Positions 42,156 through 47,569 of a stretch of 64,000 bases of DNA are shown piece after piece. Source of the stretch: Thermosynechococcus sp. NK55a (lineage in GTDB: Bacteria > Cyanobacteriota > Cyanobacteriia > Thermosynechococcales > Thermosynechococcaceae); NCBI RefSeq assembly GCF_000505665.1, contig NC_023033.1:310001-374000 (forward strand). The letters run 5' to 3'. Position numbers and translations under genes: made by a program. How positions within the stretch are numbered: position 1 is the stretch's first letter; every line of letters begins with the position of its first letter. The notes under the pieces are model-generated. The model was given only the letters and a program-made list of their open reading frames with translations. It did no database searches and had not been told where the DNA came from.

Positions 42156-42641
42156 ATGTCTATTGATAATCTTCGCACCCTCTACCAGCAGGTTATTCTG
42201 GACCACTATAAGAAACCCCGCCATCGGGGTCGCACCCAGCCTGTGGATCGCCAGCAACGGGGACATAATCCCTCCTGTGGAGACACGATTGATTTAACCG
42301 TTGCCCTACAGACAAATGAGCAGGGCGAAACAATCATTAAGGATATTCAGTTTGAGGGGGAAGGCTGCGCGATCGCGATGGCCTCAGCAGACTTGATGGC
42401 CGATGCCCTGCGGGGTCAGCCCGTCAGTCGCGCCCTTCAAATGGTGGAGCAGTTCCAAGCCATGATGAAGGGGCAATTTGAGTTTCCCCCAGAATTCCGG
42501 AAGCTGAATGTGATGCGGGGGGTGGCTCAGTTTCCCGTACGGATTAAGTGTGCCACCTTGACCTGGCATACCCTCCGCGCAGCCTTGCAACAAGATCAAG
42601 CCCCTGTGAATGGCTTTGTCAGTAATGAGGAGGAACAGTAG
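42156..42641 (+). CDS. sufU: SufU/IscU-type Fe-S cluster assembly protein
   Basis: 161 aa. The three family cysteines are visible: HNPSCGDTIDL (about residue 42), FEGEGCAIAMAS (about 70) and RIKCATLTW (about 131), with DHYKKPRHRG near the N-terminus. The insertion between the second and third Cys (VEQFQAMMKGQFEFPPEFRKLNVM) is characteristic of SufU rather than IscU. SufU relays sulfur from SufS through a zinc site. The stop TAG overlaps the GTG start of ycf51 by 1 nt. sufE, a functional counterpart, lies at 47021. Confidence 0.9.
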   Translation: MSIDNLRTLYQQVILDHYKKPRHRGRTQPVDRQQRGHNPSCGDTIDLTVALQTNEQGETIIKDIQFEGEGCAIAMASADLMADALRGQPVSRALQMVEQFQAMMKGQFEFPPEFRKLNVMRGVAQFPVRIKCATLTWHTLRAALQQDQAPVNGFVSNEEEQ

Positions 42642-43232: not shown

Positions 43233-43332
43233 TAACCAACCAACTGTTTTAAATAAATCTAGAAAGAAGGATTTTTAAGCAACCTATTTACTAGGCCTCA
43301 ATTCATTGGTTCTGGTATAGGCAAATCCAAAG

Positions 43333-43788
43333 CTACTGCATAGTTTGGCGCTGCCCTTGACAAATAGCTGGCTGAAACTCTTGCCAATTTCTACGCACCT
43401 GTTCATAACATTGAGGCGGGGCGATCGGTAAGTTCTTCAGATAGAAAAACGTTACTCGATTAAAGGATTCCAAGAGGAATATTAATTCGGTAGCTGGATG
43501 GTAAGAATCCACTGCTTCCAAAATGTGGGCAGTCATAAAGTGATGGCGCAAAATCACAGTATCAGGAGCGGCTAACCAAGCATTTAAGAAGGGAGCAAGG
43601 CGGGAACGGGGAACAAAGTGGGTTCGGAAAGATTCCCCTGCAATGCCAAACTCAGGAGAATTGGTACTGCAAATAACCACTCCTCGCTCACCCCATAGGT
43701 AACCTGCCCAAGCGTTATATCCAAGTACTAACAAATTCGTGGCAATAAAGGCTTGCTGCCAATGTGGCATTTCCGATAGTTCATCCAT
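43333..43788 (-). CDS. Hypothetical protein
   Basis: 151 aa from ATG 43788 (a longer frame starts at 43857, but its first residues are low-complexity Ser/Gly). A mixed alpha/beta protein with WQQAFIATNLLVLGYNAWAGYLWGERGVVICS at the N-terminus and ELIFLLESFNRVTFFYLKNLP towards the end; no signal peptide. No family recognised. It stands alone between tRNA-Val and metE. Confidence 0.5.
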   Translation of the reverse strand: MDELSEMPHWQQAFIATNLLVLGYNAWAGYLWGERGVVICSTNSPEFGIAGESFRTHFVPRSRLAPFLNAWLAAPDTVILRHHFMTAHILEAVDSYHPATELIFLLESFNRVTFFYLKNLPIAPPQCYEQVRRNWQEFQPAICQGQRQTMQ

Positions 43789-44084
43789 TAGTTTCTCCTT
43801 AAGAGAGCCATTCAGGCCAGAACTGGACTCAACAGGATTAGGATTGCCCCTGGACATAACAGTCCTTCGCTGAGATATCGCGGTTGCTTAGGAAGTTGAT
43901 ATTGCTAATTCCTACCGATGACCAAAAGTCCAACTGTGTAGGGTAGGCCACCGATAGGAATTGAGCCCAGCCTCTCAATCACTGTGGGAAGGAATGCCAT
44001 TGTCAACCCTAAACACCATCTCTTCCTCACCGACATCCGGAATATACTGCTACCTGGGTTTTGCCAGGAGCTACAACAGAGTGT

Positions 44085-46361
44085 CTAGGCGTTATTTTGA
44101 GATTGCATCGCCTCTTGCCGGATAGTTCTGGTGGCTTCTACCATATTTTTCAGGGATGGAATCACTTCCTCCCAGCGGCGCGTCTTTAATCCACAATCAG
44201 GGTTGACCCAAATCTGTTCAGGGGGTAAATTTTCAACTGAAGTTCGGAGCTGTTGCACTAGCTGCTCAACACTGGGCACCGCTGGGCTGTGGACATCATA
44301 AACACCGACGCCGACTTGATGTCTGTAGCCGGCATCCGTAATTTGAAATAGGGTCTCATTGTTGCTGCGGCTATTTTCAATTGACAACACATCCGCATCG
44401 AGCCGCTCGATGTGCTCAATGATGTCACCAAACTCGGAGTAGCACATGTGGGTGTGAATTTGGGTCTCAGGCTTAGCAACGCCAGCAGCTAACCGAAACG
44501 CATCCACAGCCCAAGACAAATACTCATTCCAGCGTTCTGCTTTCAGGGGTAGCCCCTCCCGCAGGGCAGGTTCATCAATCTGTATTATCTTCGCACCGGC
44601 TGCTTCCAAATCCGCAACTTCATCTCGCAAAGCAAGGGCAATCTGCATTGCCTGTTCACTGCGAGGAATGTCAGTGCGGGTAAATGACCAGTTAATCATA
44701 GTGACAGGCCCAGTCAGCATCGCCTTAACAATTTTGTCGGTGAGGGATTGTGCCACCTTAAACTCGCGAACGGTCATTGGCTGAGTGCGGGCAACGTCAC
44801 CATAAATAATGGGTGGACGTACACAGCGGCTGCCATAGCTTTGCACCCAACCGTATTCTGTAAAGGCAAATCCAGAGAGCTGCTGGCCAAAGAACTCGAC
44901 CATATCGGAGCGCTCAAACTCACCGTGCACCAACACATCTAGACCCACTTCCTCTTGTAACCGGATGCACTTGGCAATTTCCTCATCGATTGCTGCTTCA
45001 TACTCGGCTTGGGTAATTTCATGCCGTTTTAACTTCACCCGCAGTTGCCTAACCTCGGCGGTTTGGGGAAATGATCCAATCGTTGTCGTTGGAAAGGGCG
45101 GCAGGGTTGGCTGGAGTGTTCGACGTTGCTCGTAAGGCAGCGGGCGCTCTAAATCACGCACACTCAGATTGCGAAGCCGCGCCTGTACCGTTGGATTGAC
45201 AGGGCTAAATTGCTCAAAAGCTTGCCATTGAGCTTGTATGGCTATGAATTCGGGGTTTTTCGTTAAGATTTCGCGATGGGTTCCATCATTGCTATTGAGC
45301 ACCTGAGCCAAGAGGACTACCTCATCCAGCTTTTGCTCAGCAAAACTCAAGACCTCTCGCAGAGGCTCTGGTAGCTTGACCTCTCGCTTTGCATCATAGG
45401 GGACAAATTGCAGGGAAGATGAAGGATGTAGCCGAATATTGGCGGTGATGCTTTGAATCGTTTTCAAGGTTGACAACACCGATTCAGGCCGAATTTTCCA
45501 AATATTGCGGCCATCAATAATTCCTACCCCCAACTGCTTATCTGCTGGGAAGCCATGCTGTTGCAGCAGGGCTAGGTTGTGCCCACGGGTAAAGTCTAAA
45601 CTGATGCATGTCACAGGTAACTCCATCACCCACGGCCAGGCTGCCCCTAGGTCATCAAAGTAGGTCACAAGATGGATCGGTAGGTTGGCTTGACGCAGTG
45701 TATCAAATGTGGATTGATAGAAGCTCTTAAGGCTATCAGCGTCTTCTAAGACCAAGGCGGGTTCGTGTATTTGCACTTCAACGACACCTAGATTTTTGAG
45801 TTCCCTCAACAGGATGAGATAGCGATCGCCCAAGTAGGAAACAGCTTGCTCTAGGTTCGTCTCTAGCCGACTGAGCCGTAGGAGGGTGAGAGGCCCCAGC
45901 ACGATTGGAACGGCGCGATCGCCCAAGAGGGTTTGAGCACGACGAACAGTTTCTAGGAAATCACTGAAGTCAGTTGGTTGAAAAGACTCACTAATTTCAG
46001 GTACTAAATAGTGATAGTTGGTATCAAACCACTTAGTCATCTCAAGGGCTGGAATACCATCCTTGCCCCTTGCCATTGCAAAGTATTGATCCAGACCTGT
46101 AAAAGAGCGGTACCGCTCTGGAATGATGCCAAGCCGGATGCTCCAATCTAAAACAGAATCGTAAAGACTCAAATCACCAATACCAATGCGATCAATGCCC
46201 GCCTCAAGCTGCTTTTGCCAATTCTGCAATTCAATGTCTTGCGCTTTTTTGAGCAAAGCTTCTGCATCCAGTTGATTGCTCCAAAAGGCTTCTAGGGCCT
46301 TTTTTAACTCACGGTTTTTGCCAATACGGGGATAGCCTAGGGTTGCGGTTTGAATGTTCAT
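44085..46361 (-). CDS. metE: B12-independent methionine synthase
   Basis: 758 aa, full length. Transfers methyl from 5-methyltetrahydropteroyltriglutamate to homocysteine without cobalamin. The N-terminal domain opens TATLGYPRIGKNRELKKALE. In the C-terminal half the zinc ligands are visible in HTHMCYSEFGDI (about residue 635) and WVNPDCGLKTRRWEEV (about residue 720); TTIGSFPQTAEVR marks the second barrel. A cobalamin riboswitch lies 290 nt upstream on the same strand, so the enzyme is expected to be shut off when B12 is available for MetH. Confidence 0.97.
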   Translation of the reverse strand: MNIQTATLGYPRIGKNRELKKALEAFWSNQLDAEALLKKAQDIELQNWQKQLEAGIDRIGIGDLSLYDSVLDWSIRLGIIPERYRSFTGLDQYFAMARGKDGIPALEMTKWFDTNYHYLVPEISESFQPTDFSDFLETVRRAQTLLGDRAVPIVLGPLTLLRLSRLETNLEQAVSYLGDRYLILLRELKNLGVVEVQIHEPALVLEDADSLKSFYQSTFDTLRQANLPIHLVTYFDDLGAAWPWVMELPVTCISLDFTRGHNLALLQQHGFPADKQLGVGIIDGRNIWKIRPESVLSTLKTIQSITANIRLHPSSSLQFVPYDAKREVKLPEPLREVLSFAEQKLDEVVLLAQVLNSNDGTHREILTKNPEFIAIQAQWQAFEQFSPVNPTVQARLRNLSVRDLERPLPYEQRRTLQPTLPPFPTTTIGSFPQTAEVRQLRVKLKRHEITQAEYEAAIDEEIAKCIRLQEEVGLDVLVHGEFERSDMVEFFGQQLSGFAFTEYGWVQSYGSRCVRPPIIYGDVARTQPMTVREFKVAQSLTDKIVKAMLTGPVTMINWSFTRTDIPRSEQAMQIALALRDEVADLEAAGAKIIQIDEPALREGLPLKAERWNEYLSWAVDAFRLAAGVAKPETQIHTHMCYSEFGDIIEHIERLDADVLSIENSRSNNETLFQITDAGYRHQVGVGVYDVHSPAVPSVEQLVQQLRTSVENLPPEQIWVNPDCGLKTRRWEEVIPSLKNMVEATRTIRQEAMQSQNNA

Positions 46362-46603
46362 CGTTTGCCTAACCTAAATTGTGTAGAATTGTGTAAGTCC
46401 AATGGAGAAGCTAGCTGCTTCCGGATTCAGAAACAGCGCCATTCAGGAACTCGCGGAGATGGCTAACTAAAATCCGCGAAAAGTCGGCAAAAAGCTAGTT
46501 GCCACCTTTACACCAGCAGCACTACTCCCTAGCAGCAGTTGGTTAAACTCAGATAGTTTGGCCTCGGGGGGTCAAAGCTTGAAGTTCGACAGTAATAGAA
46601 ATC

Positions 46604-46640
46604 AAAAAAACTTGCTTTTATCATCTGTACCTCGCAGATG
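46604..46640 (-). terminator. Possible riboswitch expression platform (hairpin plus T tract)
   Basis: On the metE strand, directly after the cobalamin aptamer, CATCTG (46640-46635) pairs with CAGATG (46627-46622) around a 7-nt loop. Twelve bases later comes a run of seven T (46610-46604). The stem is short and the T tract is not immediately adjacent, so it is only a candidate for the terminator that aptamer folding would favour. Confidence 0.4.
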
Positions 46641-46650
46641 TTGACGTATC

Positions 46651-46790
46651 GGGTTGACCACTCGGCGGGCATTCTGACTTAGAGAGGGATATCTCTCCTC
46701 ACAGCTGCGGGACAGCGGCAGATTCACACTGCACTTTCCCCCTTACGTCTGATGGCTGATCCCCACCAGAACCGAGCAACTAAGTGAACC
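46651..46790 (-). promoter_or_regulatory. Cobalamin riboswitch (metE leader)
   Basis: Read on the minus strand, the B12 aptamer core is plain: GTGAATCTGCCGC, then GCTGTCCCGCAGCTGTGA (the B12 box region, about 46724-46698), and AAGTCAGAATGCCCGCC towards 46663. The closing helix pairs GGTTCACT (46790-46783) with AGTGGTCAACC (46661-46651), and CTCGG with CCGAG inside it. It precedes metE, whose product is the B12-independent methionine synthase, the classic target for repression by adenosylcobalamin or methylcobalamin. Confidence 0.9.
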
Positions 46791-46962
46791 ATAGCATAAC
46801 CCAGCGGGGATATCAAAGCAAATCCCAAGGAAGCCAGCTCTTGCTCAATAGAAGTAACAACTTTGGGTGATGAATCCGGATCTGGGAATGTCATTGTAGG
46901 TTTTAAGTTTAGCCCAGGCAGCCGATGGGGGGTCACAGGGGGTCTCCCTAGGCAAGTGAAGG

Positions 46963-46991
46963 TATAATCGAAGTGAAAATGATTTTCACTT
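46963..46991 (+). promoter_or_regulatory. sufE promoter with Fur-like palindrome
   Basis: A perfect -10 box TATAAT (46963-46968) is followed at once by a perfect inverted repeat at 46971-46991: arms AAGTGAAAAT and ATTTTCACTT around a single G. The core TGAAAAT-G-ATTTTCA fits the 7-1-7 pattern of a Fur box (TGAxAATxATTxTCA). It covers the expected transcription start, where a bound repressor would block RNA polymerase. This suggests iron-dependent control of the downstream Fe-S assembly gene sufE. Confidence 0.75.
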
Positions 46992-47020
46992 TCTGTCGCC
47001 AGCTCGTTGCTAGAATCGCC

Positions 47021-47569
47021 ATGTCACCTTTTTTCCAGCCCTTGCCTCCCCGTCTTGAGCAGATTGTCCAACGTTTTCAACAGATCCCAGAGCAGCGACG
47101 GCGCTATGAGTATCTACTTTCATTTGCGAGGTGCCTACCCCCTTTCCCTGAGGAGCAAAAGGTACCGGAAAATAAAGTTCCCGGCTGCGTCTCTCAGGTA
47201 TATGTGACTGCTAGTTTGCAGGAGGGGAAAGTGATCTTTCAGGGAGATTCTGACTCCCAGCTCACTAAGGGATTAGTGGGGCTGTTAATCGAGGGGGTAA
47301 ATGGCTTGACTCCGGCAGAAATCCTCCAGTTAAAGCCTGATTTTATTCAGCGAACGGGCCTCGAAATTAGCCTAACCCCCTCGCGGGTGAATGGTTTTTA
47401 CAACATTTTTCGATTTATACAAAAGAAAGCAATTGCCTATTATTTGCAGGAGTCTGGATCAGATTCTAGAGTGCGGACGGAGGGACTTGAACCCACACAC
47501 CTTGCGGTACTAGAACCTAAATCTAGCGCGTCTGCCAATTCCGCCACGTCCGCAGCAAACCTAGTTTAG
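47021..47569 (+). CDS. sufE: Cysteine desulfuration protein SufE, C-terminus reads through tRNA-Leu
   Basis: Start at ATG 47021 (MSPFFQPLPPRLEQIV); the two upstream starts lie inside the Fur-like operator. SufE accepts sulfur from SufS on its cysteine, here in NKVPGCVSQVYV (about residue 56). Other blocks are RRRYEYLLSFAR and LTPSRVNGFYNIFRFIQKKA. The family normally ends about residue 140-150. Here the frame has no stop and continues antisense through the whole tRNA-Leu gene to 47569, adding about 35 unrelated residues (ending SANSATSAANLV). A shift of one base before 47466 would reach a TAG at 47467, just ahead of the tRNA, so the tail may be an artefact. Confidence 0.88.
   Translation: MSPFFQPLPPRLEQIVQRFQQIPEQRRRYEYLLSFARCLPPFPEEQKVPENKVPGCVSQVYVTASLQEGKVIFQGDSDSQLTKGLVGLLIEGVNGLTPAEILQLKPDFIQRTGLEISLTPSRVNGFYNIFRFIQKKAIAYYLQESGSDSRVRTEGLEPTHLAVLEPKSSASANSATSAANLV
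47472..47553 (-). tRNA. tRNA-Leu (anticodon UAG)
   Basis: 82 nt class II tRNA. Acceptor GCGGACG (47553-47547) pairs with CGTCCGC (47479-47473), with A at 47472. The anticodon loop TTTAGGT between CTAGA and TCTAG gives TAG. Variable arm TACCGCAAGGTGTG, T-arm GGTTCAAGTCC. The opposite strand is read by the extended frame of sufE. Confidence 0.95.

Follow-up and report, generated by a model that had tools for sequence, protein, structure and literature searches.

The window, i.e. the whole 64-kb stretch of DNA analysed, hosts a sufE gene (47021-47569, plus strand) encoding a SufE protein (PF02657, E=3e-41, 140 bits) with the catalytic-cysteine motif PGCVSQVY. Its likely start is the ATG at 47021, where homologues begin. 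The metE gene (44085-46361, minus strand) is divergent from sufE, and a cobalamin riboswitch of metE (46647-46791, minus strand; RF00174, 59 bits) lies between the two. A hypothetical gene, metE, the riboswitch and sufE together fill a segment of ~4.2 kb (43234-47468) placed between tRNA-Val and tRNA-Leu. In five other genomes of the genus (G001, G004, G006, G007 and G008) the two tRNA genes are ~85-115 bp apart, and the ~4.2-kb segment is absent between them. The same metE-sufE pair occurs in G034, a member of a distant family, and in G004, where metE, riboswitch and sufE are at another place. Both occurrences suggest that metE, riboswitch and sufE have been transferred as a unit. Homology to SufE ends near 47455, and the final ~33 codons of the frame (47468-47569) run antisense to tRNA-Leu(tag) (47471-47553, minus strand). 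The tRNA marks the end of the inserted segment, and the native stop codon of sufE thus seems to have disappeared at the insertion junction. Short protein matches to the SufE frame of the window (P0001) occur in many genomes, and correspond to the antisense tRNA only.

Upstream of sufE resides a 21-nt perfect 10-1-10 inverted repeat, AAGTGAAAATGATTTTCACTT (46971-46991), a candidate Zur operator, as argued below. Its 15-nt core, TGAAAATGATTTTCA, spans residues 46974-46988. Exactly as described in the original prediction, the repeat starts after a gap of two bases from the hexamer TATAAT (46963-46968, plus strand). The hexamer is a candidate -10 element of sufE, and the repeat ends 30 nt from the ATG. 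The position fits a location over the predicted transcription start site of sufE, ~7-10 nt 3' of the TATAAT. A sigma-70 scan at sufE did not find a full promoter, and no clear -35 element was seen. An in-frame GTG (46973) and an in-frame ATG (46979) both fall within the palindrome. No other perfect 10-1-10 palindrome occurs in the whole window, where 0.064 are expected by chance. Yet, ~2.5 such palindromes are expected by chance in a 2.52-Mb genome, and the sufE palindrome per se is therefore only mildly surprising. A second exact copy of the core TGAAAATNATTTTCA was not found among the matches listed by a pattern search of the 2.52-Mb genome, and a repeat search of the region, at its settings, did not report the palindrome.

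Conservation of the palindrome and its candidate regulator

The half-sites of the core are identical in two other Thermosynechococcus species, three in all, and the flanks vary. Among 134 sufE upstream regions taken from across the class, 31 carry a box matching TGAWAATNATTWTCA at 12 or more of 14 positions, versus 0.95 expected from dinucleotide shuffles, and 20, versus 0.05 in the shuffles, match at 13 or more. The most frequent form is TGAGAATGATTATCA, and the site of the window is a more symmetrical variant within this family of boxes. In several relatives a TAT-AT-like hexamer immediately precedes the box, and the start codon of sufE lies mostly 17-40 nt past the box centre. The number of palindromes expected per genome could be taken to mean that the repeat arose by chance and plays no regulatory role. 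The retention of half-sites in three Thermosynechococcus, and the presence of an equivalent box at an equivalent place in many families, make this hardly credible.

The boxes fit the published consensus of cyanobacterial Zur, given as NTNANAATGATNATCATTNTNAN in PMC9337993. The sufE site of the window matches 13 of the 16 specified positions of the consensus TNANAATGATNATCATTNTNA, departing in the right half, with TTTTCAC instead of TTATCAT. Matches in relatives reach 16/16, and five sufE boxes have all the specified positions. Among the matches listed for the genome hosting the window, intergenic sites with at most two mismatches to the Zur consensus stand in front of both sufE copies, znuA, one gene for a porin and one for a pentapeptide protein. 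The znuA box is TGAGAATGGTTATCA in six of seven Thermosynechococcus, and is found 16 nt 5' of the znuA ATG in the genome under study. In G005 the znuA box is TGAGAATGATTATCA, the same as most sufE boxes of relatives. In relatives, boxed sufE opens clusters of zinc-starvation genes. The order sufE-znuA-znuC, with boxed sufE as first gene, was found in G032, G057, G103 and G114; in other relatives boxed sufE heads sufE-COG0523 clusters, with folE often, and thrS or cysS sometimes, nearby. The sufE gene of the window does not adjoin any zinc-uptake gene. Three Fur-family proteins are encoded in the genome. One of them (L105) is Zur-like by sequence comparison, as its best match among solved structures is 7ne9 (E=5e-28), an entry named in the paper on the Synechococcus Zur (SynZur), and is the candidate Zur of this organism.

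The original prediction had assigned the palindrome to Fur, and sulfur delivery for Fe-S assembly to the control of iron. A Fur-superfamily 7-1-7 metal-sensor box does lie at the sufE promoter, is conserved in distant cyanobacteria, and plausibly ties sulfur delivery to a metal; what the data do not support is Fur as the protein, and iron as the metal. If the palindrome were a Fur operator, sufE would be derepressed when iron is limiting, in the manner of the suf operon of E. coli. The 7-1-7 symmetry is consistent with the superfamily as a whole, and the inverted repeat TGATAATNATTATCA, from which the window site differs at two positions, is common to Zur and Fur. A similar box is present on a gene of the 'iron uptake porin' family in the same genome. 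In Anabaena, sufE is up 7.9-fold when FurA is turned off, yet no shift of this promoter by FurA was seen in EMSA (PMC4788461). The published FurA consensus of Anabaena, AAATAAATTCTCAATAAAT (PMC4005646), is unlike the sufE box, and so is the TGCTACTAATTCTCAATAA-like site found upstream of the iron gene isiA in the genus, which resembles the FurA consensus. In the genome hosting the window (G000), the isiA site matches the FurA consensus at 16 of 19 positions, and the 7-1-7 form at 11 of 14. No box was found upstream of two futA-like genes and of feoB. The check on isiA, futA-like and feoB upstream regions hence does not favour Fur. Moreover, the genes next to boxed sufE are zinc genes, not iron genes. 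As the sufE boxes fit the Zur consensus, resemble znuA boxes, head operons of zinc genes and differ from the isiA site, exclusive control by Fur is quite improbable. Zur and Fur, or PerR, might alternatively both bind, making sufE responsive to zinc as well as to iron or oxidative stress. Boxes of Fur-family proteins overlap in sequence, znuAB is co-regulated by FurA and Zur in Anabaena (PMC4005646), and both PerR-like and Fur-like proteins are encoded in the genome under study. However, Zur alone suffices to explain why the box goes specifically with SufU and zinc genes, and strong Fur-type matches were not found at the sites. We regard dual control as the less likely arrangement.

Distribution of SufE, SufU and the SufS histidine

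A sufU gene (42156-42641, plus strand; TIGR01994, E=8e-54, 181 bits) is also present in the window. SufU is zinc-dependent, SufE zinc-free (PMC10216065). The metal-ligand motifs NPSCGD, GEGC and IKC (Cys-x-Asp, Cys, Cys) are conserved in the alignment of the encoded protein with the zinc SufU of B. subtilis (5xt5). All of 11 Thermosynechococcus genomes encode SufU, and in six of these SufE was not detected. The two proteins are largely mutually exclusive: in a set of 291 genomes, SufU was found in 107 and SufE in 211, with 36 genomes carrying both, 71 SufU only, 175 SufE only, and nine neither.

The distribution of the box follows that of SufU. A box was found on 25 of 38 sufE genes in SufU-bearing genomes, versus 1 of 93 elsewhere (Fisher p=2.6e-16, a value which counts genomes, not independent events). 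The apparently unboxed sufE genes of three SufU-bearing genomes (G025, G026 and G074) reside inside operons having a strong box on the first gene. Exceptions are known in both directions. G018 has a boxed sufE, and SufU was not detected; G006, G064, G123, G173, G179, G221 and G228 encode both SufE and SufU, and lack a sufE box. Some assemblies are fragmented, and the absence of SufU in these may be false. Resolution is poor in the SufE tree of 74 rows, where the box arises separately, with good support, at least twice. A phylogeny-aware independent-pairs test had three usable pairs only, and was underpowered; Fisher values thus overstate independence.

SufS sequences differ in parallel. All 17 SufU-bearing genomes sampled have the motif HPHD, while HxHD occurs in 3 of the 11 sampled without SufU (p=5e-5, not phylogeny-corrected). 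Across the loci compared (L313-L342), HPHD goes with SufU, and mostly H-[AP]-[NQS]-D with SufE only. The position corresponds to what we take to be His342 of B. subtilis. This histidine is described as important for the swapping of zinc ligands with SufU (PMC10216065 and PMC12803347).

Some SufU-bearing genomes, as G003 and G249, host several copies of sufE. In the genome under study a second copy (L061; G000:C1:771768-772190, minus strand) carries a TAG stop in frame behind its first 20 codons, and has a degenerate box 40 nt upstream. Its counterpart in G003 has no internal stop.

A putative zinc-sparing switch

The palindrome, its conservation, the match to the Zur consensus, the sharing of the box with znuA, the linkage to zinc genes, and the association of SufE, SufU and the SufS histidine have all been observed. 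Taken together, these sequence data indicate that the palindrome is probably a Zur operator, and SufE a Zur-repressed, zinc-free stand-in for SufU. From them we infer that Zur binds the site and represses sufE, that zinc depletion induces the gene, and that SufE can cooperate with the native SufS. In the model proposed, when zinc is sufficient zinc-loaded Zur would sit over the -10 element and the transcription start of sufE, keeping the gene off, and SufU, which depends on zinc, would receive the sulfur from SufS. At low zinc, Zur would be released and sufE transcribed; the zinc-free SufE would then take sulfur from SufS and deliver it to SufBCD, so that Fe-S assembly is maintained and zinc is spared. 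A broader scenario, to which we lean with some reserve, extends the model to SufU-reliant cyanobacteria at large. According to it, these organisms keep a zinc-free SufE under Zur control, and zinc supply switches the sulfur carrier for Fe-S assembly, and hence for photosynthetic Fe-S proteins. Loss of SufU would be accompanied by the release of sufE from Zur, and by loss of the zinc-swapping histidine of SufS.

The operator might be recognized by Zur, and SufE nonetheless serve a purpose other than the replacement of SufU, as an example by providing sulfur for thio-modifications, or for another client, in zinc shortage. The multiple sufE copies of G003 and G249 would agree with such a role, as would the retention of the SufU-suited histidine by SufS in SufU-bearing genomes. 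In a cross-species pairing, moreover, E. coli SufE could not activate M. tuberculosis SufS (PMC10216065), a result which also calls for caution about the pairing of SufE with a His-type SufS in the model above. On the other hand, the sufE gene of Synechocystis has been reported as essential (PMC7058544), and in 175 of 291 genomes no acceptor other than SufE was detected, which argues that it is able to serve the whole pathway in cyanobacteria. A separate role for SufE is, on these grounds, unlikely, and its function as a stand-in for SufU is preferred.

Replacement of zinc-dependent proteins under Zur control is a known phenomenon, exemplified by folE2, hemB2, thrS2 and zinc-free ribosomal proteins. 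The switch proposed here is alike in that a zinc-free protein would be derepressed to take over from a zinc-dependent one, and differs in the pair involved, SufU and SufE, which belong to the SUF sulfur relay. In E. coli, the sufABCDSE operon is under the control of Fur. There too a repressor of the Fur superfamily acts on SUF genes, as predicted here, but the E. coli system couples Fur and iron to a whole operon, whereas in our case a separate sufE is most likely coupled to Zur and zinc. The metal ligands of SufU from B. subtilis and M. tuberculosis (5xt5; PMC10216065) are conserved in the SufU of the window; those bacteria, however, have SufU in place of SufE, whereas both are encoded here. 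The Zur regulon described in cyanobacteria includes znuABC, folE-II, hemB-II and a FAD oxidoreductase (PMC4628125, PMC6103462, PMC9337993). Consensus box, placement at the promoter, and neighbours such as znuA, COG0523 and folE are alike; in the available portions of the three papers sufE is not listed among the members, and the target considered here belongs to the Fe-S assembly pathway. A recent preprint (PMC12803347, 2026) proposed on evolutionary arguments that SufE is an ancient zinc-independent alternative to, or 'rescue' of, SufU. Our data agree on SufE as a zinc-free alternative, and the available part of the preprint does not include zinc-responsive regulation. No report of the control of sufE by Zur, or of a link of sufE to Zur or COG0523, was found in the open-access literature searched. 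Zur-controlled zinc-free stand-ins are hence of a known kind, and the inclusion of sufE among them is not described in the open-access literature found.

Should the model hold true, zinc supply would directly control the building of Fe-S clusters in cyanobacteria that depend on SufU, and would connect two metal economies which are usually kept separate. The patchy distribution of SufE and SufU, the existence of strains keeping both, and the difference of SufS at one histidine would find an explanation, and the natural misreading of the sufE box in terms of Fur and iron would be corrected.

Other genes near similar boxes

Overlapping boxes of the Zur/Fur type, AGAATGATAATCATTAGCATTCT, are located at G000:C1:863117-863141 (L192/L247), between a divergent gene and a gene encoding a SomB-type porin. 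The latter is annotated as an iron uptake porin, and may be regulated by zinc instead. A perfect box, TGATAATCATTATCA, precedes the gene of a dinucleotide-binding protein (FAD-type) which in turn precedes sufE-COG0523 in L037 (G026) and L041 (G025), and was also found in L168. In L037 and L041 this box is ~1.34 kb upstream of sufE. A FAD-dependent oxidoreductase is part of the zinc-limitation gene set of PCC 7002, according to PMC4628125, and is a candidate counterpart of the FAD-type protein. In G179 (L306) a Zur-type box matching at 16/16 positions is found ~463 nt 3' of the sufE start, after sufE and ahead of the next gene. Finally, the hypothetical gene of the ~4.2-kb segment (43333-43857, minus strand) has a product without a match in Pfam. 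In L167 the gene of a similar protein lies 1.1-1.7 kb 5' of a boxed sufE, and the hypothetical gene may thus be another zinc-linked one.
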